Below are positions 9,262 through 39,111 of a stretch of DNA of 41,384 bases, in pieces. A program made the position numbers and the translations under genes. Source of the stretch: Planctomycetaceae bacterium (lineage in GTDB: Bacteria; Planctomycetota; Planctomycetia; Planctomycetales; Planctomycetaceae). Location: contig JAIXZD010000209.1 of assembly GCA_027489895.1 (NCBI GenBank), positions 1-41,384 on the forward strand, written 5' to 3'. The first letter of the stretch is position 1; the number at the start of each line of letters is the position of its first letter. The notes below the pieces were generated by a model that made no database searches, was not told the DNA's origin, and worked only from the letters and a program-made list of their open reading frames with translations.

Positions 9262-9265
9262 GTCC

Positions 9266-10588: not shown

Positions 10589-10788
10589 TCCCTGGGAAGT
10601 TATCCGGGTGAAGCATTTGCCATGAAGTAGCTGACGTGAAGTGAGATCGTGTGAAACAAGCGGTGTGAGGCAGTTGATCAGGGGAGACCAGACTCCCCCC
10701 GCGACTGTCTCTCCCAGACTGAGTGCAAACAACGTCAGACCCAGAAATCGCCGTTCCGATGCGGGGCGGTCTGTTTGAGGCCGGCATT

Positions 10789-11649: not shown

Positions 11650-11754
11650 GTCACGCCGCAATCCTCGTTGTTGCCCCATGGCCAGCGAGTCCAGTTGCCA
11701 GCGTGACCTGTTGCCCCGAACTTCGCCGTCGTTTCGATCCGTGAGCAGATTGCC

Positions 11755-16138: not shown

Positions 16139-19100
16139 TCAATCCAGTCGAACGCGCTGCTTGATGAACTTCCGGTAGTCCAGCGTTTGTTTCACCGGAT
16201 CGTAATGACGTTCAATGTCTGATCGATCCAGCGTGAAAAATGCCCGAACCCGCTTTAGGCCAGTCGTCGCTTCAGGCAACTCTCCACCCACACGGTAGAC
16301 CCGCGCGGTCTGGTCGTACACGGCTTCAAAGTACCCGACCGTCACCCACCCGTAGAACACGTTGCTCCGCGTGGTCGTATGGTTCGACACTTTCGTCAGC
16401 AGCCGATATCGCGACTGCAGATCCATCTGCTGATAATCCGCCAGGTTCGTATCCAGAGCCGTTCGCGCCTCGAACAAGGTCCTCCGGTCCGGGCGAGGTG
16501 CGCTGGACCCATCAATGTCGAGGTTCGGAAAGAACGCGGTCGCCAGCGATCCCTCAAACGGCATCGAACGGAAAATGCTGCTCTCCAGCCCCGAGGCCGG
16601 CCAGTTCGCGTTCCGCCCCAAATCAAACGCCGACCGGAACGGTCGCGAGACAGGCAAACCCGGCAGATACAAACCCGTCGTCTGATCCTGCTGGTCGCGG
16701 GCCTTCAAAAACTGAGGCCACCATTGACGAGCGGCTTCGACCGTGGAACTGTCATCCAGATCGGTAATCGCATCCGCCAGCAGCGAGTTCTCGCAATTCA
16801 TCGACAGGTCATCCAGCAAACCCGCTAGCACTTTCACATCCCGAATCGTGTTCAGATTGACCTTCCCGGGCGTCCGAGGCACGCTCGTCGATTGACCGTT
16901 CCGCTCCACGCTCGTGTAGCCCGCGATCCCGGGATGGGCATTCTCCATCTCGGGCACTTCCAGCAGCGAAAAGACCCGATACCACCGATTGTCCCGTTCC
17001 GGGTTCGACGTGTCCGCCGGGTTGAAGTCCGGCCGGAGCACCTTTCTCGCCGCCGTGTACTCCCGTCCAAAACTTTCACTGAAATCCGTGTCCCGGCTCC
17101 GCGCAAAATTCTGCCCCAGGGCCAGAAACTCCGTCAGCCGGTCCGGGCCATAAAGCGGCAGGCTGAGCAGTTCCAGAGGCGAGGTGTAGTCCCGGTCAAA
17201 CTTGGGCTGCCGAACAGAAAACACCGCACTCCCAGGAACGTCCGTAAACTCGGCCACCGTCCGGGAATTCGTCACGTTGCCAATCGTGTTTCGCACGACT
17301 GAAGTTCCCGTCGAATCCACGTGTTCCAGCTCCATCACCGCGGACAGCGTCGAATAGTCTCCGTTCCCGCGCCGCTCCAGCGGTTGTCGTCGCTCGGAAC
17401 TTCGACTCGCCGTATTCTGCAGTTCCGTGTTGATGCTCGCCGCCGTCAGATCAAACCGTCGGAATGGCCGCTGATCAAAGTAATCCACGACCACCCACGG
17501 GTTATCTGCCTCTGTCGAAGCTGCGGCCCGCCCAGGGTGCAACCGACGACTGAGGACAAGCCGTACATCCGCTCCCAGATTCAGCAAATCGTCCAGATAC
17601 GATGTCGCCACCGCCCCGCTGCCATCCGCAATCGTCGCTCTTCCCAAGTGCCCACCCCACACCAGGTCCAGCGATGCACTCGGTCCGGGATCGGGGTCGC
17701 CCGGAGAAAACGCGGGAACCGTCGGGGTCGAGGGCGAAATCTGCGTCACCATCCCGCCCACCTTCGCCCGGAAATCACTCGGTCGTTCCGGGTGCGCGGA
17801 ACCCGCCGGAGCGGTATCGTTCCCGGTTCTCGCTGCAATCGTGTAGACGCCGCCCGCTGGAACGTTCTGGGTCGTGTCGTTGATCGTCAACCGACGCTGC
17901 ACGATCCCCGCCGCAACCGTCCCCGTCACCGGCCTCGAGATCACCCGTTCCAGACGCCACACATTCCCCGACATGCTCACCGGCGTCGGCCCCACATTCG
18001 CCAGCTCGACTTGCAGGTAATACCTCTGCGTCATCGACGTTTCGTCGAACGTCATGTGGTCCTGGGCTCCCGCGCCCCCTTCAAACGACACGGCCAGCAC
18101 TTCGTTGATCGCCAGAGCCTGACGTTCAACTCCAAAAACCGTCCCGCGATCGGTCTCGGCAAAACCCGAAATCGAACCAAACGGGTTGTCGTCCAGGTCC
18201 CAGCCGTTCTCCAGGTCCTTGTCATACTCGAACATCGTGATGACATCGTCCGGGTCCAGCGCATCCACATAGTTAACCGCGAACTGCGCCATCTCACTTA
18301 GCTGCTGCTCCGAGTAGAGCGCTCGCGCGGCATTCGATGTCGTCGCGTAGTTGACATCGTTCCGGCCGCCACCCAACAGATACAGCAGCACGTAGATATC
18401 CCGCGCCAGCAGTTGCCGGTCCCGTCGGGCCCAAAACTCCTGGATCGCCGCGCTTGCCGCCGGCTGCAGGTCGTCCGATCCGAGCGCCCCCAGCTCATTC
18501 AGGTCGAAGCCCCCCGAGCCGTCGTTGTCGATCAGTCCATTCCCGTCATCATCCGTTCCCGAAATCCCCGGCTGACCGTCAGTCCCCAGGATCGTCCCGA
18601 CACCTGGAATCGCGGCCGCCCCAGGATCCGCCGGATGAGGCGTCAACAACCGCGTGCCCGTGTAGTACGGACTGGCCAGGTTCGCATGCCGAGGATCCAG
18701 CAGCACCCGGTTGATGTTCAGCTTCCGTTGAAACAGCTCGTTATTCCGGAAAAACCCCGGCTGCACACTGAAAAGCTCTCGAACTGCTGTCCGAACAGGC
18801 TGCAAACGAGCGCCGATCGCGCTCCCACCGCACCACGGCGGAAACTCCGCACGCTGGTTGCGAGTCGCGGGCGTATACGTCGAGGTCGACGTCGTCCCCA
18901 TCTGATTCAACTGTTCCATCTCCCAGCCGCGTGCGTTCTGATAGGCCCGTGCGGACACATCCAGATCGCCCGTTGCCGGTGACGTTGTCTGCCGAATCAC
19001 ATGATACTGAGACACACCCATTCCAAACTGCTTCCGATCCCAACTGCTCGTGGTATAGCGAGACCGAATTCCCAGCAGACGCGCGGCCTGTGTCGTCAGA

Positions 19101-21439
19101 TTGCCCGAGCCTCCCTTATCGAAGTTGATGCTCGCCAGTTGCCGCAATCGCGAAGAGGTCGACGCCTTGGGGAAATCCGTCGCCGTCAGGTGTAGCCCGG
19201 CCATCTCGTCCACGCCAAAAATCTGGTCGTTGCTCCCCGCCAGTGACGGTTCGGTCACGGTTTCCGCAGGTTCGTCCTGGTTCTGGGCCGTGTTGGAAGT
19301 GGCCACAACCGACGTTCCGTACGGCGCGGACGCCCCATAGTCGCTCCCACCCAGAACGTTCGCATAGCGTGCGAATCGATTCGGCCCCGCAGTCACGCTT
19401 CCCAGCGTATACCCGCTGCCCGAGTAGATGTTCGGCGTCCCTGCATTCCCGGGGTACAACCGCCCGGCAAACAGCGACTCTCCCACACCACCCCATCCCC
19501 GGAAATCACTGGGGTGGTAAAACGCCGGATAAAACCCGGTAAACAGCGGCAGAAAGTAATCCTGCGTGCTCGTGGTCGTCGTGGCCGAAGAAAAAGCCCG
19601 GCCCTGTAACAGATTCCCATTGTCATCCACGCCCGGTTGACCCGGCACAGGAAACAACGTCCCGCTATGCAGGAACCCCAGCGGGTTCACGGTCACTCCC
19701 ATCGACGAGTCGGTGATCGACGACAGCAGCAGATTCAAATCCCCCCACCGCCCCGCCGTCAGATCCGCAATCCCACCCAATGTAAAATTGTCGACGCCCG
19801 CCACGGTGTACGGGCCGCCGCCCTCAGCAAACCGCATCCGGCCCCACAGCAGATTCGCCAACTCCAGATTCGCCAGTTGTCGCCGATTCAACGTCGGCCA
19901 ATGGTCGACCCCCGGATTGCTCCCCGTCGTCGGAAGGTTGTACTGCGCTCGGTACTGTTGCCCTTCTTCCACCGGCACGCCTTCGCTCGGGTCCAGATCG
20001 AATCCATACGTCGGGTTGATCTCCGACCGCGAGACCCCATGGTTCGACCGGCTGATCGATCGATTCGCGTTGAGCAGTTCCGTCTTGCTCACGTCCCGCG
20101 CGTTCGTCGCACTCGCATAGAGGTTGCCCACTTCGTTCAGATTCATCAGGCCATCGCCGTCCAGAATCGTGAACGAATAGAACGGCACGTAATACCGTCC
20201 ATCCGTGAGCTGCTGGGCAGGAAAATCGAGGTCCAGCCAAACTCCTTCGGGGCGTCCATCGCCGTCGTTATCGACGTCGAACTCCAGGTTCGATGCCCGC
20301 GCGATGGCATCCCCCAGGTTCGTGCCGCTGAACACGCCTTGCTCATTGAATGCTCCGTCACCATCCCGGTCGACCACGAACGGGAACGGCGCCACCTGCT
20401 GGTTCGCGGAATTGAACACCACATCAGCCGCATTCACGGTCGGCACGGTGGGCCGGATATACCGAAATCGGGTCAATCCCGTCGGACCGCGGACAACATG
20501 CGACGGATGCGGCCTCAGCACGCGGTCCGCTGTCGCCGGGTCGCGGGCCCAGCCCAGAACCGTCCCATCGTCGGGAATACTGTTGTTCTGCGGCACACCA
20601 CTGTTCAGGTTCCGCAGATACTGTGGCCGGTGAAACGATGGAATCACGACCGGAACGACCGCGCCCGATGTCGGGTGGACCGTCGTCCCGATGTACGCCA
20701 GAAACGGATTGTTGAGGTCCGCTGCCGTGTAGTCCACGTCCGGAGCCGGCGGCCCATACGGTTCGCCGCTTTGCGGAAACGTCCCCAGCTCCCCTGCCCC
20801 CGACGGAACCAGGTCCGTCGGCACAAACCGGGGGTCCGACAGAATCCGAGTGGTGCCGTTGTTCGCCCGCGAAGACCAGTTCAATCGCAGCAACTGGTCG
20901 GCGTTCGTCGGGGCCGGTGTCTGATTTCGATCCAGCACGCCGTTCCGGTCCCGGTCCACACCGAATGCGGCAGAGTCCGCAATTCCATCCGGCGGAGCGG
21001 CTCCCACGCCCACATCGGTGACCGAGACATTCACGCCCTCCCCGTTGAAGGGCGACGAATCGAACCCCATCATCGTCGCCACTAGCGAATGCCGTGCCGC
21101 CGGTTGCAGGCGATCGGCCGTTCGCCGCGACCGATAGAGGGGCCCCGCAAGTGCGCTCCCGGGCGCATTCTCATCCGCCCCGACAATCACCTGTTGCAGG
21201 CCATAGTCCAGAACCAGTTCCGGGTCGAGTTCTCTCGGCCGCTTATTGCCTTCCGAAAAATTCTCGGCGCTCTGATTCTCCTGCGCCGAGAACGTGAAGA
21301 ACGTCAGCCCCAGCAGGAGCAACAGCCCCAGCATTCCAATCACCACGATCAGTGTCGAGCCGCGGCGACTGGCTCCCACTTTGGCCCCCACGCTGGCTCC
21401 AGTGCCGCGCTGTCCGCGATTCAATTTCCGAATGGCCAT
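16139..21439 (-). CDS. Giant GspK-like minor pseudopilin (1766 residues)
   Basis: The N-terminus has a basic leader ending RRG followed by STLIVVIGMLGLLLLLGLTFFTFSAQE, a class III prepilin-type segment. Position +5 is Val, not Glu, as is normal for GspK, the tip subunit of type II secretion pseudopili. Near residue 1523 PGKVNLNT matches the GspK G(K/R)xNLNT element. GspK is normally about 300-350 residues; this is five times longer. The extra sequence holds Asp-rich loops (DRDRNGVLDRN about 158, DRDGDGAFNE about 351, DVDNDGDG about 384, TDDDGNGLIDNDG about 960) resembling calcium-binding EF-hand or thrombospondin type 3 loops. ATG 21439 has GAGGAG 7 nt upstream, which decides it over 21496. 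It is the last gene of the pseudopilin run, 134 nt after the J-like gene. Confidence 0.72.
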   Translation of the reverse strand: MAIRKLNRGQRGTGASVGAKVGASRRGSTLIVVIGMLGLLLLLGLTFFTFSAQENQSAENFSEGNKRPRELDPELVLDYGLQQVIVGADENAPGSALAGPLYRSRRTADRLQPAARHSLVATMMGFDSSPFNGEGVNVSVTDVGVGAAPPDGIADSAAFGVDRDRNGVLDRNQTPAPTNADQLLRLNWSSRANNGTTRILSDPRFVPTDLVPSGAGELGTFPQSGEPYGPPAPDVDYTAADLNNPFLAYIGTTVHPTSGAVVPVVIPSFHRPQYLRNLNSGVPQNNSIPDDGTVLGWARDPATADRVLRPHPSHVVRGPTGLTRFRYIRPTVPTVNAADVVFNSANQQVAPFPFVVDRDGDGAFNEQGVFSGTNLGDAIARASNLEFDVDNDGDGRPEGVWLDLDFPAQQLTDGRYYVPFYSFTILDGDGLMNLNEVGNLYASATNARDVSKTELLNANRSISRSNHGVSRSEINPTYGFDLDPSEGVPVEEGQQYRAQYNLPTTGSNPGVDHWPTLNRRQLANLELANLLWGRMRFAEGGGPYTVAGVDNFTLGGIADLTAGRWGDLNLLLSSITDSSMGVTVNPLGFLHSGTLFPVPGQPGVDDNGNLLQGRAFSSATTTTSTQDYFLPLFTGFYPAFYHPSDFRGWGGVGESLFAGRLYPGNAGTPNIYSGSGYTLGSVTAGPNRFARYANVLGGSDYGASAPYGTSVVATSNTAQNQDEPAETVTEPSLAGSNDQIFGVDEMAGLHLTATDFPKASTSSRLRQLASINFDKGGSGNLTTQAARLLGIRSRYTTSSWDRKQFGMGVSQYHVIRQTTSPATGDLDVSARAYQNARGWEMEQLNQMGTTSTSTYTPATRNQRAEFPPWCGGSAIGARLQPVRTAVRELFSVQPGFFRNNELFQRKLNINRVLLDPRHANLASPYYTGTRLLTPHPADPGAAAIPGVGTILGTDGQPGISGTDDDGNGLIDNDGSGGFDLNELGALGSDDLQPAASAAIQEFWARRDRQLLARDIYVLLYLLGGGRNDVNYATTSNAARALYSEQQLSEMAQFAVNYVDALDPDDVITMFEYDKDLENGWDLDDNPFGSISGFAETDRGTVFGVERQALAINEVLAVSFEGGAGAQDHMTFDETSMTQRYYLQVELANVGPTPVSMSGNVWRLERVISRPVTGTVAAGIVQRRLTINDTTQNVPAGGVYTIAARTGNDTAPAGSAHPERPSDFRAKVGGMVTQISPSTPTVPAFSPGDPDPGPSASLDLVWGGHLGRATIADGSGAVATSYLDDLLNLGADVRLVLSRRLHPGRAAASTEADNPWVVVDYFDQRPFRRFDLTAASINTELQNTASRSSERRQPLERRGNGDYSTLSAVMELEHVDSTGTSVVRNTIGNVTNSRTVAEFTDVPGSAVFSVRQPKFDRDYTSPLELLSLPLYGPDRLTEFLALGQNFARSRDTDFSESFGREYTAARKVLRPDFNPADTSNPERDNRWYRVFSLLEVPEMENAHPGIAGYTSVERNGQSTSVPRTPGKVNLNTIRDVKVLAGLLDDLSMNCENSLLADAITDLDDSSTVEAARQWWPQFLKARDQQDQTTGLYLPGLPVSRPFRSAFDLGRNANWPASGLESSIFRSMPFEGSLATAFFPNLDIDGSSAPRPDRRTLFEARTALDTNLADYQQMDLQSRYRLLTKVSNHTTTRSNVFYGWVTVGYFEAVYDQTARVYRVGGELPEATTGLKRVRAFFTLDRSDIERHYDPVKQTLDYRKFIKQRVRLD

Positions 21440-21573
21440 GATTCTACTCCTCGTCCGAACAGGATCGGACACCAGCCCGCCACGATGGAACCCCACCCGT
21501 GACCTGACACGCCTCTCTCACCCTACCACTCGCCCGCACACGTTCGCCCAATCTGGCCCGCCCGTCCCTCTCG

Positions 21574-23715
21574 CTACGATTGCGGCCTGGTATCCAGGAG
21601 CGAATGCTGAATCGTGATGTCTCGAATCAGGCCCGAAGAGACATCCCGCACCCGCACTCGAATCTGGATCGCCCGCATCGGACGCGTCCTCAAGTTCACG
21701 TCATCCGTCCGAGGAAATCCCACCTCAATCTGGTTATCCGCGATCTGGTCCGCAGGAGCGGGCAGCGAGTTCGGATTGTTGTCGTTGAACCCACCGCGTC
21801 CCGGTTGCTGATCTGGCCCCAGGTCGTAGGCCGTATCATCGGTGCCCGGCCACAACAGTTCCGTCGCGTTGTCGATGATTCCGTCGCCATCGTCATCGAT
21901 CCCACGTTTCCCTGGTTTTCCATCGGGGCCCGCATCGGGGATGAAGTCGTCCCATAAACCCACTTCGCCCCAGTCCGCCGGCAACGTGTCGGTGGTCGAG
22001 TTCCCATCGTCGTCGACCCCCGCCCGTCCTGGTTGACCGTCGGGCCCCAGGCTGACGCCCGATGTCGAACGGAACGGCGGCACGCGTCCCAGATTCACGA
22101 ACTGCGAATTCGCCGACATTCGCGGATGCCACGTATCAAACACACGGTTCCACGGGTCATCCGACCCAGGCCAGCCCTGCTCGCCAAGGTCGTCCGTCGT
22201 CCCATTCCCGTCATCATCCACACCCGCTCGGCCCCACTCTCCATCCGCACCCTGCAACTGGGCGGTCGTCAGTCCCGCCAGATCGATCGGACCAAAGCCC
22301 GGCAGCCGATTCGCCCGATGCCCGTAATACCCCGTGCCGTTACTCGCGACATGCCCAACATCGACAAACGCCTGCACGGTGGGATGCTCGTCATACACCT
22401 TGATGTCAAACGCCAGCACGTTGGTCATCAGAATGTCTTCGCCCACGCGCGGACCATCCAATCGAACCGTCGACGCGCCCCCCAGCGTGATCACCCCATC
22501 TGCCCCCAGCACACTCCCGTTTCGCCGCACTCGGAAGAGTGGGTAGTCGTCGTCGTTGGTTCCAAACTGATTGTCTGGGCCACGGTCCAGTTGCCCCGGA
22601 TACTGAAACGCCGTGTGGCTCGTCTCCTGATGCGTGAACCGACCGAAGAACGTTTCGAGCCGATTCCCCGTCACCGTCGCCCCGCCATCAGGTGGCACGC
22701 CCCCATTCGCAAAACTGATCGGCCGCCCCGAACGCGGATCAAACCCGAACCGATGATTGGGAACCCCCAGCGAAAACGTGGCCGGGGTCGCCGCGTTACT
22801 TAACGAGTTCCTGTCGGCACTGATCGCATGGAACACCAGCTCATCCGCCGCCGACGCTGCGACCCCCGCTGGTTCAAAGTGCGCGGAGAAATCGAAGTCA
22901 TTGAGGAAATTTACGTTCGCCGCCAGTGATCCGGTCGTCTGCCCCGGCACCAGATCATCCACGTCATAGCCCGCCGTTGTGGCCGTGGGCGCCGACCCTC
23001 GAATCAGATCATCACCGGCGCCATTCAAGTCAGCGCTCGGCTGCCCCAAGTAAGCCGGTGATGATTCCCGAAGCGGCTTACGGATCAGAACGACCCGCCG
23101 ATAGAGGGTTCCCCGCCGCAGAAAGTACACCACTTCCGCGTAGGGAGACGATGACACCCGATCCGACACGCCTCCGCTCCCCAAACGTCCATCGTCAAAT
23201 GCGGGTTGATTCGGATTCCGAAACACACCTGGGAACCCCGTAATCGGCGCCTGACCAGCAATCGTCAGCCCCATCGCGCGGCCGGCATAAGGTGTTGTAT
23301 CGCCGTCCCGCAGCACCTCGCCCGCATGCACCGTCAACTGCAGCACATCGTCCGTATCGTCGAACGGGTCTCCTTCCGAGATATGCAGGTATCCTTCCCG
23401 ATTTGCGTCACTCACACCGCTCGTTTGTCCCACAAACGGAATCACATCCCGAAACGTCCGCTTGTCCAGATCGCTCCGCAGCAGTGTGTCCGTCAGCCGC
23501 TGCCGCTGGTCGTTCTCGGCCAGGCCCCGCTGACGGGTCATCAGTCCCACGGCCACCTGAAAAATGGACGCGAACATCGTCATCATCAGCAGCACCAGCG
23601 CCACCGAGACGAGCATCTCCACCAGGGTGAACCCCTGGCGATGACGGCCCGAATTACGACTGGCCGCATTGCGGCTGCTCATGGTCCGTGCGGCGGTTGT
23701 GCGTGTGACTTGCAT
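21574..23715 (-). CDS. GspJ-like prepilin-type protein with calcium-loop repeats (713 residues)
   Basis: The leader ends RQG and the mature part begins FTLVEMLVSVALVLLMMTMFASIF, with Glu at +5, a typical type IV prepilin start. Position in the run (after H and I) and the following text (RQRLTDTLLRSDLDKRTF) suggest GspJ/PulJ, usually about 200 residues; this is over three times that. Residues about 490-640 hold a repeated pattern GxAGVDDDGNGTTDD...PGSDDP, GVDDDGNSTTD, GIDDDGDGIIDN...PGTDD, GFNDN, resembling thrombospondin type 3 calcium loops. GGGAGAG lies 8 nt before the ATG. It begins 2 nt after the I-like stop codon. Confidence 0.78.
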   Translation of the reverse strand: MQVTRTTAARTMSSRNAASRNSGRHRQGFTLVEMLVSVALVLLMMTMFASIFQVAVGLMTRQRGLAENDQRQRLTDTLLRSDLDKRTFRDVIPFVGQTSGVSDANREGYLHISEGDPFDDTDDVLQLTVHAGEVLRDGDTTPYAGRAMGLTIAGQAPITGFPGVFRNPNQPAFDDGRLGSGGVSDRVSSSPYAEVVYFLRRGTLYRRVVLIRKPLRESSPAYLGQPSADLNGAGDDLIRGSAPTATTAGYDVDDLVPGQTTGSLAANVNFLNDFDFSAHFEPAGVAASAADELVFHAISADRNSLSNAATPATFSLGVPNHRFGFDPRSGRPISFANGGVPPDGGATVTGNRLETFFGRFTHQETSHTAFQYPGQLDRGPDNQFGTNDDDYPLFRVRRNGSVLGADGVITLGGASTVRLDGPRVGEDILMTNVLAFDIKVYDEHPTVQAFVDVGHVASNGTGYYGHRANRLPGFGPIDLAGLTTAQLQGADGEWGRAGVDDDGNGTTDDLGEQGWPGSDDPWNRVFDTWHPRMSANSQFVNLGRVPPFRSTSGVSLGPDGQPGRAGVDDDGNSTTDTLPADWGEVGLWDDFIPDAGPDGKPGKRGIDDDGDGIIDNATELLWPGTDDTAYDLGPDQQPGRGGFNDNNPNSLPAPADQIADNQIEVGFPRTDDVNLRTRPMRAIQIRVRVRDVSSGLIRDITIQHSLLDTRPQS

Positions 23716-23717
23716 GA

Positions 23718-25016
23718 CTATCGCTCTCCCAGCGGGAAGACATCGACGATTCCCTGCATGAATACGGCGCTGAACAGATTCGTCGTCGTATCGAAGGGAA
23801 TGTCCGCCAGTTCATTGCCATCCGCGCGGACCAGCGTCATCACCAAGCCGCTGTCCGAGATGTTCTGGATTCGATAGGCCCGCAGATCGTTCGTCGAGAT
23901 GCAGAAGCCGCCCCGCTTGGCAAACTCCGGCTTCGTCGTGAACGTCACCTGACGGTTGTCCAGAGGCCCCAGTTGAGTTGCCGTGTAAACCAGCTCTTCA
24001 TTGCCCGTTCCCAGCGCCGTATCTGCCTGGTAGGCCCGTTTGTGAAACACCACACAATCCGCCTCGACACCCACTGTCGTCCGCCGCAGCAGCGCCAACC
24101 ACGAGTAGCGCAGGTCAATCGTTTCAATCACCGCATTGGTCGGAACAAATCCCGTCGGAACCAGCGGCGCATTGGGAGTGCTGGCTGTCAGCCCCCACGA
24201 AACCACATTGGCTCCCGTGATCCCGATAACCGTCCGCGTCTGACTCAGTCGCCCCGTCACATCCGTCATCACAATCCGGACCGCGGGGTCGGTGGCAGTA
24301 AACGTCAGCCCCAGGCTTCCAGAACCTGGAACGACGCAACTCGTTGACGTCACACCGCTCACCGCATCCGAGGAATGCACCACCGTCCACGTGTCACGAT
24401 TTCCGGCTACACTTGCCGCCGGGACCAGCAGCGAACTCAGTGCCGCCACAGTCGTCGGTTGCGGTACATAGACCAGCCGGTTCAACCCATGCAGCCGCGG
24501 GATCGCCGCGGCCCCGGTCGCCCCCACCGGGAACACTTCCGTGCCCAGCGTGGCCACCCCCAGCGGATCGAGCACCGCCACAAACCGATCGTCCGAACCA
24601 CTGAATCCCGTTTCGTTTGGCTCGTCGGTCACGCCATCATTGTCGTCATCGACGCCGCCACGACCCGGCAGACCATCCACCCCCTGATTGATCCGCACAT
24701 CATCCAGAACGCGTCGTTGATCGGCCGGTGGCCAGACCACCGTCGGATCCGGAGGCCCCTGCCAGCGGCTGCGATCCAGAAACTCTTCCGCGTTCTTCTT
24801 CAGCACTGTCGCCTGCGTCCGCTTCGTCGCCTCGATCGACCGCAGCACCGCCAACGGGAAAAACGTCGCCACGCTCACCAGCCCGATCGACGCGATCAGC
24901 AGCGACACCAGCACTTCGCTCAACGTCGCGCCAAGCCGCCCCGCGCCATCACTGGCTGCGTGGCCGCCAGATCGTCGCAAACCAATCTCGGTGCGTGTTC
25001 TGTACAGGGAGTTCAT
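23718..25016 (-). CDS. GspI/PulG-type prepilin-like protein (432 residues)
   Basis: From ATG 25016 the leader ends in RLG and the mature part begins ATLSEVLVSLLIASIGLVSVATFFPLAVLRSIEATKR, with Glu at +5. ATLSEVLVSL is the I-type (GspI/PilV-like) form. GspI is usually about 125 residues, so this is an enlarged version. A single Asp-rich loop GRGGVDDDNDGVTDEPNETGF followed by SGSDD lies near residues 113-140 and matches those in the J-like protein. The ATG overlaps the stop of the upstream H-like gene as ATGA, and GGGAGG is placed about 10 nt before it. The open frame continues upstream to 25496 but that part is the shadow of the H-like gene. Confidence 0.75.
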   Translation of the reverse strand: MNSLYRTRTEIGLRRSGGHAASDGAGRLGATLSEVLVSLLIASIGLVSVATFFPLAVLRSIEATKRTQATVLKKNAEEFLDRSRWQGPPDPTVVWPPADQRRVLDDVRINQGVDGLPGRGGVDDDNDGVTDEPNETGFSGSDDRFVAVLDPLGVATLGTEVFPVGATGAAAIPRLHGLNRLVYVPQPTTVAALSSLLVPAASVAGNRDTWTVVHSSDAVSGVTSTSCVVPGSGSLGLTFTATDPAVRIVMTDVTGRLSQTRTVIGITGANVVSWGLTASTPNAPLVPTGFVPTNAVIETIDLRYSWLALLRRTTVGVEADCVVFHKRAYQADTALGTGNEELVYTATQLGPLDNRQVTFTTKPEFAKRGGFCISTNDLRAYRIQNISDSGLVMTLVRADGNELADIPFDTTTNLFSAVFMQGIVDVFPLGER

Positions 25017-26281
25017 CGTCCCGCGACCTCCCCACGCTTGGCAAAGCTGAAAATGTTGTCCGGCAGTCCATCCGCCGGTCCGGTCCCCGTCGTGTTGTTC
25101 ACGCTGTCCGTCAGGTCGATCGGCGATGTCAGCACCTGCCCCGTGTGCGTGTAGATCGACACGACCAGCCAGTTGCCGCTCGACGACGCGCTTCCCGGAA
25201 GGAAGCCCTGATCCAGATCGGACGCGGTGCCCACCAGGAAGTGAATCACCCCGAGTGCCGCTTCCGGGCCGGTAATCGTCCCGCGCGGCGAGAACAAGAT
25301 GTCCATCGGCGGACCATTGGCCGATAGCGTCCATGTCGATGGCAGATTCGCTCCGGGCAATAGATTCGTCCCGTCCAGCGACAGGGCAACCGCCGCCCCA
25401 CCCGGTAGCTTCAGCACCTCTTCGCCCGGCAAGAGCGACGGTCCCAGTTCCAACGTGATCCCGCGATTGGCCGATCCCGCGGCATCGGAAGCCCACTCGT
25501 AAGCCAGCGACAGTGTGGCCCCCGTATAGGCTGATCCATACACGGGCAGTGGATCCACCAGAACCAGCGCCCCATCATCGGTCGCCGTGTTGGCGGGATC
25601 GTCGATTCGTACCGTGCTGATCGGTGACGAATGCACCTCACCCCCAATGCGAATCGTCACGAGATCTCCATCTCGCAACAGACCCAATTGAAACAGCCGC
25701 TTGAATTCCGAGTTATGACCCGGCTTGGGGAAATCCACATCGAGGATGTACCCATTCGGGTTACTCATCGCCGGCGGCGGAGTCAGGAAGAGCGCCGGCC
25801 GGACAACTGGCGGCGCATAGAGATAAATGCGGCGAATGTCCGACCCTTCGCGAACAAACTGCAGCCCGCTGCTGGCAATAACCCGCGGGTCATCGGTGCG
25901 AAAGTTTGGACCTGTCCCCAGCAGGACCGGCTCCGTCGACTGGATGAACGCAAACCCCGTCACCAGGCTCGGGTTGTTGGCGTCGCGCACCAGCCGCACA
26001 CCGCGATAAACCTTCTCGCGGAAGTTTGCCGCCTTCTGGGCATAGATCGCCCGGTCGCGCGCTCCCAACAGCGCCGACTGCACCTGCCGAGTCGCCGCCC
26101 GCAGCCGGTCCGAATCGGCCGTCGCGTTGAACACCGACAGCGTCACCGCCGCCAGGATCAACAGGATCGTGATTACGATCAGTAACTCGATCAGCGTGAA
26201 GCCCCGACGCACCGTCCCAAACAGCACCGTCCCAAACAATCGCACCATCCGAGCTGGTGCGGGCCGCGGTTGCGAACGCAT
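25013..26281 (-). CDS. GspH-like prepilin-type protein (422 residues)
   Basis: The leader ends VRRG and the mature part begins FTLIELLIVITILLILAAVTLSVFNATADSDRLRAATRQVQSALLGARDRAIYAQ. This form, with the RAATRQVQSALLGARDRAI stretch, is characteristic of GspH/FimT-type minor pseudopilins, usually about 150-190 residues. The remaining 350 residues are beta-rich with no family I recognise. The gene begins 2 nt after the stop of the preceding prepilin gene and ends in an ATGA overlap with the I-like gene, so the run is almost certainly co-translated. Confidence 0.78.
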   Translation of the reverse strand: MRSQPRPAPARMVRLFGTVLFGTVRRGFTLIELLIVITILLILAAVTLSVFNATADSDRLRAATRQVQSALLGARDRAIYAQKAANFREKVYRGVRLVRDANNPSLVTGFAFIQSTEPVLLGTGPNFRTDDPRVIASSGLQFVREGSDIRRIYLYAPPVVRPALFLTPPPAMSNPNGYILDVDFPKPGHNSEFKRLFQLGLLRDGDLVTIRIGGEVHSSPISTVRIDDPANTATDDGALVLVDPLPVYGSAYTGATLSLAYEWASDAAGSANRGITLELGPSLLPGEEVLKLPGGAAVALSLDGTNLLPGANLPSTWTLSANGPPMDILFSPRGTITGPEAALGVIHFLVGTASDLDQGFLPGSASSSGNWLVVSIYTHTGQVLTSPIDLTDSVNNTTGTGPADGLPDNIFSFAKRGEVAGR

Positions 26282-26283
26282 GG

Positions 26284-27378
26284 TTATTGCCCCCCCGCGA
26301 TGATGTTGTGATTCGAAATGTTGTCCGCAATCGTCGTGTGATCACTCGACAGTGGACGCGCCAGCCGCGCGGTGCCCGTCGCATTCGGCTCGCCCACCCC
26401 CAGAATCCCATCCGCCCCAGCCGACATCACCAGCGGCAGCGAAAACGTGGCGATCGTGTGGAAGTCGGTCTCGAACGTGGTCCGTGTGAAGGGTGGAGAC
26501 CCGATGTCCGTCAGCACATTGAGCAGAGCCGTCGGATCATCGAAGTCGCCGTTCAACTGGGCCGCACTCGTGGGAAGATTGCGAAAGATCAGCCCGGCCA
26601 GGCTCGCATTGATGTCTGTGTGGACCGTGTCATCTCCATCATCGCCAGCCGGCTTTACCAGACCCGTCGGCCAGCGGTAGAACCGCAGGGGCTGCTGCCA
26701 GCCGTCGGTGAATTCCGAGAATCCGTTGTTGTTGGAGTCGACCACATCCGTCGTCGAAAACGCGTCGGCTCCCGGAGGGTCATATCCAGGAACCGAGGAC
26801 TTCGTCAGGACGAAGTACAAGACCTCCGAACTCTCCGCAACACGCCCCTTTTCCCACTGCTCTTCCGTTTCGAGATTCAGCCGTCCCGCCGGCGCGGTCC
26901 ACGGAAACGACGAGGGCTTCGTCGCAGGGTAGATCGGCAAGCTGGAGACGCCCGCCTCCACATGCAGGCTCGAAGCAAATGCTTCATCCCACGTCTGTGG
27001 CAGATAAAAGCGGGCCAATGCTTTCTTGGTGATCACGGCCGCCTCACGATTTCGCGCGGCGTTGCCCACATACGCGATCGGCGTGACTCCGAGGCCCGGC
27101 ATCACGTTTGCCGACCGTCCCGGATTGGCTCGCGACGAGGCCAGCCGCTCCAGCGCCTGCGTTCGCGTTTTGAGCTGGGTATGCACCTTCGTCACCACGG
27201 TCTGCGTCGCCGCCCGCCGTGCCGTCGAGATCAGCCCACCGACAACCCGCAGTGTGAGCGCCGCCAGCACTCCGATGATGGCGATGACAATCAGCAGTTC
27301 GATCAGCGTGAACCCGCGGCGAGCGCTGGTCCGCAGGCCAGGCTGGCCTCGCCGAGAGTGGTGGGTGTTCAGTTTCAT
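26284..27378 (-). CDS. Second GspG/PilA-like prepilin-type protein (364 residues)
   Basis: From ATG 27378 the leader RRG is followed by FTLIELLIVIAIIGVLAALTLRVVGGLISTARRAATQTVVTKVHTQLKTRTQAL, a strong type IV prepilin/pseudopilin start with Glu at +5. The later part contains DSNNNGFSEFTDGWQQPLRFYRWP, resembling the conserved C-terminal region (DxxxxDxWGxPL) of GspG-like subunits. GGAG lies 7 nt before this ATG; the frame is open to 27579 but the first 67 codons show no similarity. It probably adds a second long pilin or a minor subunit to the filament. Confidence 0.78.
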   Translation of the reverse strand: MKLNTHHSRRGQPGLRTSARRGFTLIELLIVIAIIGVLAALTLRVVGGLISTARRAATQTVVTKVHTQLKTRTQALERLASSRANPGRSANVMPGLGVTPIAYVGNAARNREAAVITKKALARFYLPQTWDEAFASSLHVEAGVSSLPIYPATKPSSFPWTAPAGRLNLETEEQWEKGRVAESSEVLYFVLTKSSVPGYDPPGADAFSTTDVVDSNNNGFSEFTDGWQQPLRFYRWPTGLVKPAGDDGDDTVHTDINASLAGLIFRNLPTSAAQLNGDFDDPTALLNVLTDIGSPPFTRTTFETDFHTIATFSLPLVMSAGADGILGVGEPNATGTARLARPLSSDHTTIADNISNHNIIAGGQ

Positions 27379-27607
27379 CTGGTTTCTCCGCCCCTGCCCG
27401 AGCTGTTCCTGCCGCCCGTGTTCGTTCCCGCCGTGTTCGATTCGTGGCCTGACGGCTGTCCCTCGGGAGAGCCGCATGGCGGTCATCCCACCCGAGTTTC
27501 TTGCGCATCCCGACCCCCGGACGGTGGCCCACCCGTCCCAAACAGGCATTTTTCGCTGAGAAATCACCCGTCCCCGCATTGCGCGGCCCGGTCGATCCCA
27601 ACGCCTG

Positions 27608-28591
27608 TTATCGCTTCAACCGACCCCCATGGAAGTTGGTCAGGTTGTCGTAGTCGCCCACATCCGCCAGCCACGACAGCGGCTTGTCAGGATTGAACAC
27701 ACCACCTTTCCCGTAAAACCCGTCCACCCCGGGAGAGATGATCTGGAACGTTTGCGGCTTGTGGGCCGGGTAAGCCGAGGAGAACGTCGCTCCTACCCCC
27801 GGAGCATTCGGCGTCGCCGTGCTGCTCGTGGGGTTAAACACCCGGTAGACATCGACGAACGTGCCGTCGATCGCGGTTGTCAACGTCTGGTAGCCGCGAC
27901 CTTCCCGCGAGCTGAAGTAGAGGTACGGCTTGGTCTGCCCCGGAAGATTGTCGCGATACTCGCGCCAGCCCCACACCGCGTTCCCCGCCCCGCTCCCCGT
28001 ACTGAAATTGCTGTCCAGGTCAACATACCGGGCGGGATCGAACTCGAAGAACGGCCCCTCCCGAGATGCCGCTGTCGACGCCGACAGAAACGGGCGAGCC
28101 GGATTCTTCGCAAACCCCTCGGCCGCACCCGTCGAGCGATTCACCACCCCACCCAGGAAGAAGACTAGCGCCTCACCCGCATTCAGGCGAATCTCATCAT
28201 CGGCGTCGCCATCGCCGGTCAGGTCGCGATTGAAGTTGGTCGCATGGTGGGCCGTCGTAAAATCGTACTGCGGCCAGATCCGCCGAATGAGTGCCCGGCT
28301 CTCCGTATCGCCCGTCCATCCGGCCGGCGCTTCATAGATGATGACCCGACTGGGAGGCTCAATCCCATAGACCGCCTTGAACGCAGTCACTGCTGATTCG
28401 AGTTGCTTGATCTCGTTGATTACGGCGGCATCACGGGCCGTGCTGAACGCGCCCAGCAGGGCCGGGGCGATCATCGCCACCAGCATCCCGATGATCACCA
28501 CGACGATGAGCAGTTCGATCAGCGTCAGCCCGCCACGGCGTTGGCCGCGGGCGGGTGGAACTGCGCCAGTGGCTGGCGATGTCGTTTGCAT
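27608..28591 (-). CDS. GspG-like prepilin-type protein (327 residues)
   Basis: The leader ends RRGG and the mature part begins LTLIELLIVVVIIGMLVAMIAPALLGAFSTARDAAVINEIKQLESAVTAFKAVYG, close to GspG. Glu is at +5. DLTGDGDADDE (about residues 125-135) could be a calcium loop. The body is longer than GspG (about 140 residues) by about 190. It follows the GspF-like gene by 133 nt and GGGAGA lies 7 nt before its ATG. It heads the run of six prepilin-type genes. Confidence 0.8.
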   Translation of the reverse strand: MQTTSPATGAVPPARGQRRGGLTLIELLIVVVIIGMLVAMIAPALLGAFSTARDAAVINEIKQLESAVTAFKAVYGIEPPSRVIIYEAPAGWTGDTESRALIRRIWPQYDFTTAHHATNFNRDLTGDGDADDEIRLNAGEALVFFLGGVVNRSTGAAEGFAKNPARPFLSASTAASREGPFFEFDPARYVDLDSNFSTGSGAGNAVWGWREYRDNLPGQTKPYLYFSSREGRGYQTLTTAIDGTFVDVYRVFNPTSSTATPNAPGVGATFSSAYPAHKPQTFQIISPGVDGFYGKGGVFNPDKPLSWLADVGDYDNLTNFHGGRLKR

Positions 28592-28724: not shown

Positions 28725-29981
28725 TTACGACAGGTCGTTCAGCAGCTTGACCAGCGGCATGAACAGGGCGATCACGATGAACCCCACGATCAGCCCCAGC
28801 ACGACCACCATGATCGGCTCGAGCATGCTCACCAACCCGTCCACGAGCACGGCGACTTCTTCGTCGTACACGTCCGCCACCTTGTAGAGCATGTTGTCGA
28901 GTGCCCCGGTCTCTTCACCGACCTCGACCATGTTGACCACCATGTCGTCGACGATCTTCGCCTCCTTGAGGGGGATGGCCATGGGCTCCCCTTCGCGGAT
29001 CGCGCTATAGATGTTCTGGAACGCCTTGTAGAAGACGGTGTTCCCGGCCGTATCTCGCACAATCGAGAGCGATTCCAGGATCGGCACCCCCGAGGCGATC
29101 AGGGTTCCCAGCGTTCTCGTCATTCGGGCCACGATCCCCTTTTGTAAGATCTTTCCTAACAGGGGGATGCGTAACGAGAGCCAGTCGACGACGAAGGCCC
29201 CCGTCTTGTTCTTTTTGATCAGTTTGATCGACAGCCAGATGGAGAGCGGAATCAGCGGGCCGAGGTAGAAGTAGTTCACCACGACGTCCGATGTCCAAAT
29301 CAGGGCGACGGTCATCGGTGGCAGCTCGACCCCGAACCCTTCGAAGATCTTTTTGAACTTCGGAATGATGTAGTACATGATGAAGCCGACGATCCCCGTG
29401 GCGACGGTGATGACCGCCGCCGGGTAGATCATGGCACCTTGAATCTTCCGCTTCAGGCTCTGAGCCCGTTCCTTGAACTCGGCCAGACGCTGGAGAATGA
29501 CTTCCAACGCCCCCCCGGCCTCGCCCGCCTTCACCATGTTGACGTAGAGGTTGTCGAAGCACTTGGGCTGCTTGCCCATCGCTTCCGACAGCGTCGAGCC
29601 CGACTCGACGTCATCAATGACATCGATCAGCGTGTTTTTCAGTGCGCCAGGCTTGGCTTGGCCTTCGAGAATTCGCAGGCTGCGAAGAATCGGCAGGCCG
29701 GCATCCTGCAGCGTGGAGAGCTGCCGGGTGAAGGTACAGAGTGTCTTGGCGTTCACGCCGCCAAACGCGAACGTCTTCTTTTTCTTCTGGTTGGCGGCCC
29801 CCTTTTTCTTCTTGGGGTCTTTGCCCTTGTCCTTCTTCCCCCGGCCTTTCTCGACGATGCGCGTCGGGAAGTAGCCCTTCTGACGGATGAGGGTCTGCGC
29901 TTCCTGTTCCGAACCGGCTTCGATGGTGTCCTTCACCTCGGCCCCGGCATTGTCCATCGCTTCAAATGCATAAACCGGCAT
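28725..29981 (-). CDS. PilC/GspF-family inner-membrane platform protein
   Basis: A 418-residue protein of the T4P/T2SS platform family. An N-terminal lysine-rich linker (KGRGKKDKGKDPKKKKGAANQKKKK, about residues 45-70) precedes two T2SSF domains: FTRQLSTLQDAGLPILRSLRILEGQAKPG... (about 84-205) and MTRTLGTLIASGVPILESLSIVRDTAGN... (about 288-405). Membrane helices flank each (about 190-215, 240-260, 385-412). The GEETGALDNML of domain 2 is highly conserved in the family. It should connect the PilB-like motor to the pilin filament. GGAG is 6 nt before the ATG. Confidence 0.94.
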   Translation of the reverse strand: MPVYAFEAMDNAGAEVKDTIEAGSEQEAQTLIRQKGYFPTRIVEKGRGKKDKGKDPKKKKGAANQKKKKTFAFGGVNAKTLCTFTRQLSTLQDAGLPILRSLRILEGQAKPGALKNTLIDVIDDVESGSTLSEAMGKQPKCFDNLYVNMVKAGEAGGALEVILQRLAEFKERAQSLKRKIQGAMIYPAAVITVATGIVGFIMYYIIPKFKKIFEGFGVELPPMTVALIWTSDVVVNYFYLGPLIPLSIWLSIKLIKKNKTGAFVVDWLSLRIPLLGKILQKGIVARMTRTLGTLIASGVPILESLSIVRDTAGNTVFYKAFQNIYSAIREGEPMAIPLKEAKIVDDMVVNMVEVGEETGALDNMLYKVADVYDEEVAVLVDGLVSMLEPIMVVVLGLIVGFIVIALFMPLVKLLNDLS

Positions 29982-30359: not shown

Positions 30360-32066
30360 TTAATCGCCGCCGTCCAGAATGGTTTCCCGCACGACTTCGT
30401 CGATCGTCGTCACCCCGTCGAAGATCAGCTTGAGGCCCGATTCGCGCAGCGTCGTCATCCCCTGGCTGCGGGCCACGTTGCGGATGTCGTCGACCGACGC
30501 GTTCTCGCCGATCAGGTCGCGAATGTCGTCCGTCACGTCGAGCAGTTCATAGATTCCACAGCGGCCCTTGTACCCGGTGTTGCTGCACCGCTGGCAGCCG
30601 CGGCCGTAGTAGAACTTGTATTTTCGTGCCTGGGCGAGCGGCAGTTGCAATTCCATCAGCAGTTCATCGCTAGGCTCGAACTGCGTCCGGCATTCGGTGC
30701 AGATCTTCCGCACCAGTCGCTGCGCGAGAATCGCCTCGACCGTTGCGGTGATCAAGAACGGCTGAACCCCCATGTCCCGCAACCGCGTGATCGCACTTGG
30801 CGCGTCGTTTGTGTGCAGCGTGCTGAACACCAGGTGTCCCGTCAGGGCCGCCTGAATTGCGATCTCGGCGGTTTCCTTGTCGCGAATCTCGCCCACGAGC
30901 ACCGTGTCCGGGTCGTGACGGAGAATCGCGCGGAGGGCACTGGCGAACGTGACTCCAATTTCGTGGTTGATTGGCACCTGCAGCAGCCCGTCGATGTCGT
31001 ATTCGATCGGGTCTTCCGTGGTGATGATCTTGACCGTGATTTCGTTCAGCTCGTTGAGGGCCGAGTAGAGCGTCGTCGTCTTGCCCGAGCCGGTGGGACC
31101 GGTCACCAGCACAATGCCGTTGGGCCGACGGATCATCGACCGGAACTTGTTGAGGATGTTGGGCGCCATCCCGATCTTCGTCAGGTCGAGCTGAACCACC
31201 GTGCGGTCCAGCACTCGCATGACGACCGACTCGCCGAACAGCGTGGGCAGCACGCTCACCCGCAAGTCGACCGAGTGCCCCCCGACCGTCAGTTCGATGC
31301 GTCCGTCCTGCGGCATGCGGCGTTCGGCAATGTCGAGATTCGACATGACCTTGATTCGGGTGATCAGCGCATTCGCCAGATGCCGGGGCGGCGGCACCAT
31401 CTCGTACAGCATTCCGTCCGCTTTCACGCGGATTTTGAACTCGTCTTCAAACGGCTCGAAGTGAATGTCGCTCGCCTGGTCCTTGATCGCCAGCAGGAGC
31501 ACCATGTTGAGCAGTTTGCGAATCGGGGCGGCGTCGGCCATTTCCTCGACGTTCCCGAGGTCGTAGCCACGCGAGTTCTCGTTCAGCTCCTCGTCGTCTT
31601 CCAACTCGCCGATGACGTCTTCAATGCTTTCCTGACGGCCGGCGTAAAACCGCTCCATCGCCGCCTGGATATGAACTTCACTGGAAATCGCACCCCGCAC
31701 CTCGACACCCAGAAAATTCCGGAGGTCATCGAGCGCCGCGAGGTTCTGCGGGTCGGCCATCGCCACGGTGAGCACATCGTTCTTCAGCGACACCGGCATG
31801 ATCTTGTAGACGCTCGCCATCGTCTCGGGAACGAGTTCGAGCACCTTGGGCTGAATCGTGGTTTCCGGCAGGTTGATCACCTGCATGCCCCACTGCTCAG
31901 CCAGAGCCTCCATCACCTGCGCTTCGGTGACCAGCCCCATTCGGCCCGCGACCTTGCCGATGACCTCGCCGGGGGACTGCTTCTGCTCTTCGAGCACGTC
32001 CCACAACTGGTCCTCGGTGAGATACCCGAGGTCAACCAGAATCTGACCTAGCTTGCGGCGAGCCAT
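30360..32066 (-). CDS. PilB/GspE-family assembly ATPase 1
   Basis: A 568-residue extension ATPase of type IV pilus/type II secretion. The N-terminal MshEN (T2SSE_N) domain runs to about 160 (RRKLGQILVDLGYLTEDQL...). The motor domain carries Walker A GPTGSGKT (323-330), the Asp box TTEDPIEY (349-356), Walker B VLVGEIRD (389-396), the His box LHTNDAP (417-423) and a zinc-binding CTEC...CQRC (456/459 and 491/494). It should drive filament extension with the PilC-like protein downstream. The start is certain from homology, yet the bases just before the ATG are CACCTCCT, the complement of a Shine-Dalgarno sequence. Confidence 0.95.
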   Translation of the reverse strand: MARRKLGQILVDLGYLTEDQLWDVLEEQKQSPGEVIGKVAGRMGLVTEAQVMEALAEQWGMQVINLPETTIQPKVLELVPETMASVYKIMPVSLKNDVLTVAMADPQNLAALDDLRNFLGVEVRGAISSEVHIQAAMERFYAGRQESIEDVIGELEDDEELNENSRGYDLGNVEEMADAAPIRKLLNMVLLLAIKDQASDIHFEPFEDEFKIRVKADGMLYEMVPPPRHLANALITRIKVMSNLDIAERRMPQDGRIELTVGGHSVDLRVSVLPTLFGESVVMRVLDRTVVQLDLTKIGMAPNILNKFRSMIRRPNGIVLVTGPTGSGKTTTLYSALNELNEITVKIITTEDPIEYDIDGLLQVPINHEIGVTFASALRAILRHDPDTVLVGEIRDKETAEIAIQAALTGHLVFSTLHTNDAPSAITRLRDMGVQPFLITATVEAILAQRLVRKICTECRTQFEPSDELLMELQLPLAQARKYKFYYGRGCQRCSNTGYKGRCGIYELLDVTDDIRDLIGENASVDDIRNVARSQGMTTLRESGLKLIFDGVTTIDEVVRETILDGGD

Positions 32067-32215: not shown

Positions 32216-33322
32216 TCACTCATCGTCTTCTTTTTCTTCGTCATCGAAGATCCCCTTCTTCGCGTTGGCGATCCGCGCCCGCAGTTCCCCGGGGTTATTC
32301 GACTTGATACAGACCGGGCCTTCGTCGCAGAGGCCGTTCTTCCAGAGGTTGAACAGTGCGTCGTCGAGCAACTGCATCCCGAATTTCTTCCCCGTCTGAA
32401 TCGAAGACGGAATACGGTAGGTTTTGTTTTCGCGAATCAGGTTGGCGATAGCCGAGGTGATCACGAGCATCTCGTACGCGGCCACCACCCCCTTCGGTTT
32501 CTTGGGCAGCAGCGCCTGGCTGAGCACCCCGAGAATCGCCGTCGAGAGCTGTGTCCGAATCTGTTCCTGCTGACTGGTGGGGAACACGTCGATGATTCGG
32601 TTGACCGTCCCTTCGGCCCCCGTCGTGTGCAGCGTGCCGAACACCACGTGGCCCGTTTCGGCCGCCGAAATCGCCGACTGAATCGTTTCCAGGTCGCGCA
32701 TTTCACCGACGAGGATGACGTCGGGGTCCATTCGCAGGGCACGTCGCAAGGCTTCCGCGAAGCTCGGCACGTCGACGCCGATTTCGCGCTGATTCATCGT
32801 GCACTTCTTGTGCTTGTGGTAGTACTCGATCGGGTCTTCCAGCGTGATGATGTGGTGGTCCACATTGTCGTTCAGCCAGTTGATCATCGAGGCGAGACTG
32901 GTCGTCTTGCCCGAACCCGTCGGGCCCGTCACCAGCAGCAGGCCGCGGGGACGGAGAATCAATTCGCGAATGACCGGAGGCAGGCCGAGCTGCTCAAACG
33001 TGAGGAACTCGCTGGGGATTCGCCGCAGCACCATGCCGACATAGCCACGCTGTTTGAACACGGCCACGCGGAACCGCGCAGCATCGCCAAATGCGAACCC
33101 GAAGTCGGTCCCCCCGCGTTCCTGCAGCTCCTGTTGATTCCGCTCCGGCGTAATACTTTTCATTAGCCCGATGCAGTCTTCCCCTTCGAGCGACTTTGTC
33201 TCCAGGCGGACCATGTGACCACCCACACGCACCACGGGGGGTTGCCCCTGGGTGATGTGCAAGTCACTCACCTTCTGGTTGACCACCGTCTGCAGGAGTT
33301 TGTCGATCTGAACGGACGACAT
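32216..33322 (-). CDS. pilT: PilT-family twitching/retraction ATPase
   Basis: A 368-residue retraction ATPase of type IV pili. It starts MSSVQIDKLLQTVVNQKVSDLHITQGQPP, as PilT does. Walker A is GPTGSGKT (133-140), the Asp box ITLEDPIEY (159-167), Walker B VILVGEMRD (202-210) and the His box LHTTGA (231-236). The C-terminal AIRNLIRE motif that marks PilT is AIANLIRE here (291-298), with Ala at the Arg position. The tail is acidic (DDEEKEDDE). From 33322 AGGGAAG lies about 8 nt upstream; the frame is open to 33400 but the extra residues are unlike PilT. It implies retractable filaments. Confidence 0.94.
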   Translation of the reverse strand: MSSVQIDKLLQTVVNQKVSDLHITQGQPPVVRVGGHMVRLETKSLEGEDCIGLMKSITPERNQQELQERGGTDFGFAFGDAARFRVAVFKQRGYVGMVLRRIPSEFLTFEQLGLPPVIRELILRPRGLLLVTGPTGSGKTTSLASMINWLNDNVDHHIITLEDPIEYYHKHKKCTMNQREIGVDVPSFAEALRRALRMDPDVILVGEMRDLETIQSAISAAETGHVVFGTLHTTGAEGTVNRIIDVFPTSQQEQIRTQLSTAILGVLSQALLPKKPKGVVAAYEMLVITSAIANLIRENKTYRIPSSIQTGKKFGMQLLDDALFNLWKNGLCDEGPVCIKSNNPGELRARIANAKKGIFDDEEKEDDE

Positions 33323-33877
33323 CTTCTGACTTCCCTGTGCGAGATTACGCCGCGCATAAATTGCGCAGCTCAAGACGTCCCGGAGGCCATGTCCTGGCAA
33401 CCGGGATCTGATGGAAGAGAAGCCTGGCCGTCTGGGTGGGCTGCCGAAGCGTCTTTCCGAATCGCATCTGTCTCGGTTGTGGCGAACGCCACGCGATAGA
33501 TCACCGCGACAAAGGCATTATCCCGGCCGAACTCTCAAAGCACAAATCCGCATCGAGAATTCATGAAGGTCGAAACTCGCGGATGGCCATCAACTTGCGC
33601 GAACAGACCGCCAATTGGACAGGGGCTGACCACCCTGCCTCCCCTTTTGGCGGAATCCGCCGGCCAGCGCAAAACAGCACAGACACCCCCGCAAAATGCC
33701 GCATTCGCCCGACAGGGATTGCCTGGACAAATTCGACACGGGCCCTGCAATGCCCTCGTGAATGATGCGATATCGGCACAGTTGAAGCGGCTGCTGATAT
33801 CGGCGCCGAACAGAAACTGACGCCAGAACGACACGCCTTGCCGGTGGCAGATCATTCGGGTGACAGCGACGATCCCA
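33323..33877. other. Gene-free region inside the ATPase cluster
   Basis: This 555-nt stretch between ATPase 2 and pilT has several short reading frames but none with similarity I recognise, and their amino acid make-up is Arg/Pro/Cys-rich, as in non-coding GC-rich DNA. It holds GATATCGGC twice (33769-33777, 33796-33804) near the ATPase 2 end. A pilT promoter is expected here; no clear -35/-10 or sigma-54 element was seen. Confidence 0.55.
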
Positions 33878-35572: not shown

Positions 35573-35895
35573 GACAAGACCTTGCGTTGCGAAGCAGAGA
35601 CAACCAGTGACCGGATAAGCCCAGTCGGCAAGAGCGCCGCTGACTGGTCGTGGACAGGTCGTCCCGAGAGGGAACCCCGGCCGGAACGACCGGACCCTCA
35701 ATTCTGCCGGGGGCGAGCGGAGCTTGCAACGCCGGATCGGGGGAACTGGAGAATGGGTGTGCCGGACTCAGGGCCGGGACCGCCCCGAAGCCGCAGAACC
35801 CAACTCCCTTCCCTTTGACCAAACACGGCATGCCCGCGGATGAGCTGTTGGCCGACCGGTGAGGGTCGGCCGATCTGCCTGGTTTTCGCCAAGAA
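35573..35895. other. Gene-free region upstream of ATPase 2
   Basis: It should hold the promoter of ATPase 2 (minus strand) and the end of the small lipoprotein transcript. A strong hairpin lies at 35850-35871. No gene was seen; short reading frames on both strands have no recognisable similarity. Confidence 0.55.
35850..35871 (-). terminator. Hairpin after the small lipoprotein gene
   Basis: GGCCGACC-N6-GGTCGGCC gives a perfect 8-bp GC stem, 25 nt past the lipoprotein stop in transcription direction. No T-run follows on the minus strand, so Rho or a folded-RNA role is as likely. Confidence 0.45.
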
Positions 35896-37595: not shown

Positions 37596-37652
37596 GGCCC
37601 ACCCCCTCAATCAAAATGCGCTCTAACGAACAAACAGAACGCGTCTCGAATG

Positions 37653-39036: not shown

Positions 39037-39095
39037 AGTATATCCCCTAAGGTCAAGAAGTGTTCGTAAGAACAAAAACTTCGACTCTACGGTAG

Positions 39096-39111
39096 AGCAG
39101 ATCATGCGCCA
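39096..39111 (-). promoter_or_regulatory. Sigma-54-like promoter, DUF1559 gene 2
   Basis: TGGCGC-N5-CTGCT on the minus strand, identical at the consensus positions to the element at 37653-37668 although the five spacer bases differ. It would give a leader of about 49 nt. Confidence 0.55.

Follow-up and report, generated by a model that had tools for sequence, protein, structure and literature searches.

The last gene of a pilin operon in a planctomycete bacterium encodes a 1766-residue minor pilin without glutamate at position +5 (Glu5) that probably caps a type IV filament of the class Planctomycetia; it occupies the GspK/PilK slot of the operon and is most likely a GspK enlarged by insertions. 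The gene lies within the 41,384 nucleotides of DNA that were analyzed (the window). What a type IV filament binds or secretes is determined by its tip subunits. The GspK of type II secretion caps the pseudopilus and is itself devoid of Glu5, and nothing is added above a Glu5-less subunit. The giant protein would be located at the filament tip, would have originated from GspK, and would bind a ligand through its enlarged head. Literature searches gave no paper on a planctomycete GspK, and the tips of planctomycete pili are undescribed in the literature searched.

The giant gene is on the minus strand (Table 1), with no part of it on the plus strand. Its single open frame can be read from a GTG at 21496 (16139-21496; 1785 aa), and the residue numbers used here are those of this longer frame; however a GAGGAG 7 nt 5' of the ATG at 21439 makes that ATG the probably correct start. 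The protein then has exactly the 1766 residues given in the earlier note, and the roughly fivefold excess over the usual length claimed there comes to 5.2 times the ordinary planctomycetotal GspK (~342 aa, taken as the sum of median block spacings). The leader (GASRRG followed by STLIVVIGMLGLLLLLGLTFF) has Val rather than Glu at +5, and a class III leader with a hydrophobic helix lacking Glu5 is present in the relatives as well; i.e. residue +5 is V, I, L or M in all 68 giant homologues whose leaders were readable among 81 sequences, the window protein included. The Glu5-less prepilin leader first proposed for this protein is thus borne out. The five sister pilins upstream all have Glu5 (TLIEL in three, TLSEV and TLVEM). 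Filament assembly begins at a tip complex capped by a Glu5-less subunit (PMC10191384).

Table 1. Positions of the giant pilin, its predicted parts, the pilus operon and the giant GspKs of other orders (window coordinates unless a locus is given; residues in the 1785-aa frame).
Feature	Position	Strand	Residues or size	Basis
Giant GspK-like minor pilin	16139..21439	minus	1766 aa from ATG at 21439	
Processed pilin start and N-terminal helix without Glu5	21242..21358	minus	aa 47-85	leader comparison, AlphaFold helix
Strand and DGDGLMNLN element, aligned to the strand/NLN at the start of the GspK alpha-domain	20120..20197	minus	aa 434-459	weak hhalign
Second NLN and two helices, ending ..QFAVNYVDALDPDD..FEYD	18254..18727	minus	aa 924-1081	conserved in relatives
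Lamin-tail-like beta-sandwich	17465..18130	minus	aa 1123-1344	VIA-align, Foldseek, Pfam LTD
GKVNLNT element	16805..16870	minus	aa 1543-1564	hhalign
C-terminal strands, TTRSNVFYGWVTV..VRAFFTLDRS	16223..16384	minus	aa 1705-1758	four-stranded sheet in model
GspJ/PilW-like pilin with Glu5	21574..23715	minus	713 aa	N_methyl; weak gspJ-type matches
GspI/PilV-like pilin with Glu5	23718..25301	minus		
GspH-like pilin with Glu5	25013..26281	minus	422 aa	
Second GspG/H-like pilin with Glu5	26284..27579	minus	431 aa	
GspG-like major pilin candidate with Glu5	27608..28591	minus	327 aa	gspG 7.2e-11
GspF/PilC platform protein	28725..29981	minus		T2SSF 3.2e-63
GspE/PilB ATPase with MshEN domain	30360..32066	minus		Pfam
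PilT-type ATPase	32216..33400	minus		T2SSE 3.1e-50, no MshEN
Second GspE/PilB ATPase with MshEN domain	33878..35701	minus		Pfam
Other-order giant GspK	L102:850-6093			
Other-order giant GspK	L103:2917-8151			
Other-order giant GspK	L104:991-6225			
Other-order giant GspK	L105:758-6145			
Other-order giant GspK	L106:13522-17916			

The gene order GspE-PilT-GspE-GspF-G-H-I-J-giant is retained across the class, including the same neighbours in 40 loci. The giant had been described as the last member of a G-H-I-J-K run; it is the last, but the run consists of six pilins rather than five (at 27608, 26284, 25013, 23718 and 21574, then the giant), and the sister pilins are all large (Table 1; ~527 aa for the GspI/PilV-like one). 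Repeats of the form GPDGxPGxxGxDDDGDGxxD in the GspJ- and GspI-like pilins (21574-23715 and 23718-25301, minus strand) resemble calcium-binding loops, and similar DxDxDG motifs are found in the giant at aa 374-385, 406-421 and 982-1001. Just upstream of the operon are tandem DUF1559 prepilin-like proteins (36582-37610 and 38020-39105, both minus), and on the opposite strand is a Tad-type cluster (8044-13089, plus) with a TadE/G-like protein, a CpaF-type ATPase and two TadB/C-like proteins.

Two MshEN-containing ATPases of the PilB type share the operon with one of the PilT type, the latter so labelled from its length, its lack of MshEN and an AIANLIRENK element rather than from a model match. 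Such a PilT-type ATPase is found in the operon of most relatives. Since a retraction-type ATPase is a feature of type IV pili and the type II secretion machine is without one, the operon appears to specify a type IV pilus and not simply a type II system, and the type II secretion frame in which the protein was first placed seems too narrow. Elsewhere in the genome are prepilin peptidases, secretins and, on contig 16 (L205), a fusion of PilM with a membrane-anchored region in a GspL-like layout, which has 794 aa and a long proline-rich tail. The secretins and the GspL-like fusion would suit a type II secretion cap, the extra mass of which could be padding or a substrate-recognition surface in the periplasm, and, as the sister pilins are also oversized (327-713 aa), large subunits may be the rule in these filaments. 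This periplasmic cap, which is compatible with descent from GspK, is nevertheless considered rather unlikely, because of the PilT-type ATPase in most relatives and because the residues that are invariant in the relatives are spread over the inserted regions also and thus do not have the appearance of drift.

The probable derivation from GspK is not evident from the standard models. The comparison with Pfam T2SSK proposed in the earlier note was negative: neither T2SSK nor T2SSK_1st matches the giant or 30 relatives at E<=1, NCBIfam finds no T2SSK in the giant, and a T2SSK search of the window's genome gave no match, so that nothing else was found there to fill the GspK slot. PF03934 hits above cut-off in the window's family were rejected as helix-hairpin-helix proteins, namely DnaE in genome G028 and a ComEA-like protein of 172 aa in genome G161, and at L114:3470-6688 T2SSK matches DnaE through its helix-hairpin-helix; counts of T2SSK (PF03934) per genome therefore include false hits. 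Identity of the giant as a Verru_Chthon cassette protein was also considered and rejected, there being no NCBIfam match and no paper found.

A profile made from 17 ordinary GspKs of the same phylum does reach the family. All ten of those checked match Pfam T2SSK, and a ten-sequence profile finds the XcpX and GspK structures in the PDB (5vtm_X at E 3.3e-21 and 3ci0_K at E 7e-18). At E<0.01 the ordinary-GspK HMM recognizes 22 of the 121 giants (seven of them at E<1e-4) and no reversed giant; three blocks are in order at locus L087, and at L100 a single block extends from NLNT as far as the last strand. Much of this signal is contributed by the leader helix, a feature possibly common to other Glu5-less pilins, and hence it supports a common origin rather than proving one. 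Alignment of the giant with ordinary GspK by hhalign gives four blocks in GspK order: aa 40-85 (leader and helix, P 4.9e-05), 438-459 (weak, P 0.05, ranging over 0.03-0.19 depending on the alignment), 1435-1454 (weak, P 0.34) and 1542-1564 (NLNT, P 0.0026 with the whole profile and 1.4e-04 with the C-terminal segment alone, against NINTAP of GspK). The first and last of these score 33-52, versus 9-16 for column shuffles and ~25 for reversed profiles, whereas the two weaker blocks (19-27) are no higher than the reversed control. The last strands of the giant and of GspK are in register, weakly (score 14.9, exceeded by 2 of 40 column shuffles). Sequence profile searches of the PDB with the giant alignments yielded nothing useful.

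These results also bear on a different origin, i.e. a modular minor pilin of PilX- or PilV-like ancestry that lost Glu5 independently and came to hold the same operon position without descending from GspK. The absence of Pfam T2SSK and the weakness of the GspK blocks taken one by one speak for it, as does PilX_N, the only pilin family to appear, with matches under the cut-off in two sets of relatives (2 of 18 and 2 of 13). However, PilX_N also matches four of ten ordinary GspKs and so does not discriminate, the NLNT and C-terminal-strand blocks follow the GspK order with NLNT above both the shuffled and the reversed controls, and the slot is exactly that of K in a genome with no other K found; such an ancestry is accordingly judged improbable. 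Descent from GspK remains the preferred reading, and the GspK-type identity asserted in the earlier note holds as to the slot, the missing Glu5 and the NLNT, is favored at family level by the purpose-built profile, and finds no support in Pfam T2SSK.

Comparison of spacings suggests how a GspK core could have been stretched. In ordinary GspK the median distances are 97 residues from helix to NLN, 49 from NLN to DxD, 27 from DxD to EL, 42 from EL to NLNT, 76 from NLNT to the last strand and 51 to the end; in the giant they are 405 to the first NLN, 475 to the second NLN, 154 to DxD, 361 to ELL, 105 from ELL to NLNT, 162 from NLNT to TRS and then 76 to the end. The enlargement is thus mostly at three places. 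The insertions would amount to some 300 additional residues after the helix and ahead of the first NLN, some 475 from there to the second NLN and, ahead of GKINLNT, a lamin-tail-like beta-sandwich spanning roughly 220 residues. The element at aa 924-1081 resembles the first GspK alpha-subdomain, with a weak hhalign match to the first GspK NLN (P 0.15). The NLNT reported near the C-terminus is indeed there, at aa 1547-1550 (GKVNLNTIRDVKVLAGL).

The AlphaFold model of aa 36-960 (pLDDT 67.6, pTM 0.67) has a long helix at 47-85 and then a head, predicted at low to medium confidence, for which Foldseek gave no PDB match. The model of aa 900-1785 is better (pLDDT 77.3, pTM 0.84), and in it the C-terminal 75 residues fold into a four-stranded sheet like the end of a pilin. 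GspK is absent from the listed fold matches of both half models, between which the core sheet is split. For aa 1123-1344 VIA-align retrieves eleven lamin entries at Z 6.7-7.6 over 105-119 aa with 18-21% identity, a level (Z <8) that by itself could reflect a common arrangement; one row stands above the lamins (DUF4876, 4q1z, Z 8.9) and the others are at 5.6 or less. The first Foldseek row for the C-terminal half is lamin B1 (E 0.16), and the sole Pfam match of the giant is LTD (PF00932) at the same place (12.6 bits against a cut-off of 34.3, E 0.18), which six of the 18 relatives scanned also show under the cut-off (best E 0.0061). Two independent weak signals, of fold and of Pfam, coincide here, so that a lamin-tail-like domain is likely, and the sandwich would lie inside the GspK-like core. 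A pilin leader together with an extra, lamin-tail-like non-pilin domain in one protein is the layout of a modular pilin. No internal repeats were found between the halves of the giant, the high scores being due to overlapping slices.

The giant form is widespread among relatives. Protein searches found a homologue in 50 of 59 of these, the best match being an unbroken frame in 40 loci, mostly of 1,515-2,190 aa (the 1,065 aa at locus L098 run off the contig end). One orthologue is that of the cultivated planctomycete Thalassoglobus neptunius KOR42 (locus L151). In a phylum sample, a profile of the C-terminal half found the giant in all 10 genomes of the same family, in both other genomes belonging to the class and in 1 of the remaining 187; at this sensitivity the giant form is a feature of the class Planctomycetia. 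Only the unusual length favors two or more genes joined by sequencing error or mis-assembly, and this has been refuted to the point of negligible probability by unbroken frames of 1,582-1,744 aa in the single-contig genomes G105, G126, G234, G161 and G004 and by dozens of independent assemblies, in keeping with the single gene of the earlier note.

Given descent from GspK and a type IV pilus, the following working model can be suggested. The N-terminal helix would dock the giant atop the GspI/GspJ-like subunits, as judged from GspK biology, and the giant would emerge ahead of all other subunits. With a pilus motor that includes PilT, the filament could carry the head outward, let it attach to a surface, a matrix or some other ligand, and retract it again, so that the giant would do the work done elsewhere by PilY1 or by grafted adhesin modules. 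The class-wide conservation of the oversized form suggests that the planctomycete pilus tip is a large binding head, and the surface-exposed binding head imagined in the earlier note, although we still infer it, is better grounded now by the lamin-tail-like sandwich. More tentatively, the tip subunit of a retractable filament may have become a giant multi-domain adhesin or sensor, new domains, the lamin-tail sandwich among them, having been introduced into its GspK core at several points, so that a single polypeptide would combine GspK and PilY1; other orders would have attained the same size separately, by C-terminal and partly lectin-like extensions. A class-wide tip pilin of 1,500-2,200 residues offers one gene for deletion or tagging. 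Should it be a GspK, this subunit can accommodate very large insertions, a point of relevance to assembly of the tip complex and to its passage through the secretin.

Other planctomycetotal orders also have GspK-like giants, of 1,464-1,795 aa and adjoining pilin genes (L102-L106, Table 1), in which a T2SSK element near aa 370-500 is followed by a C-terminal extension of ~1,000 or more residues, unlike the window giant with its insertions and lack of a T2SSK match. T2SSK is just under cut-off in three of the four that were scanned and at cut-off in one, and Laminin_G_3 occurs in two of the four (L105 and L106). A 1505-aa frame at L101 was not counted, as its T2SSK part is at the C-terminus only and it is probably an over-long frame of an ordinary GspK. 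A giant in the GspK slot has thus been reached by at least two architectures, insertion and C-terminal extension, which show that enlargement of the GspK subunit is a repeated event in the phylum.

Among known systems the giant most resembles GspK itself (XcpX, PulK; PDB 3ci0_K, 5vtm_X), which shares with it the last position in the pilin run, a Glu5-less prepilin leader, and the strand-NLN, GKINLNT and last strand in the same order; unlike GspK it is about five times longer, is missed by the T2SSK models, contains a lamin-tail-like domain and, separating its two NLN elements, a stretch of 475 aa, and is accompanied by a PilT-type ATPase in its operon. It extends the known theme of modular pilins, of which 264 architectures have been recorded, the most extreme named being of 860 residues, and among which GspK has an alpha-domain inserted in its own sheet and ComZ an inserted beta-solenoid (PMC8179133). 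As in Streptococcus sanguinis PilB and PilC, CofB and ComZ, a pilin is joined to extra modules that are likely displayed at the tip, and as in ComZ a module would be inserted within the sheet (PMC8179133); the giant differs in its 1766 residues versus 860, in the lamin-tail-like module and in growth at several places. To the tip adhesin PilY1/PilC the resemblance is in the proposed role alone, that of a large binding protein borne at the tip, since PilY1/PilC is not a pilin and docks on the minor pilins.
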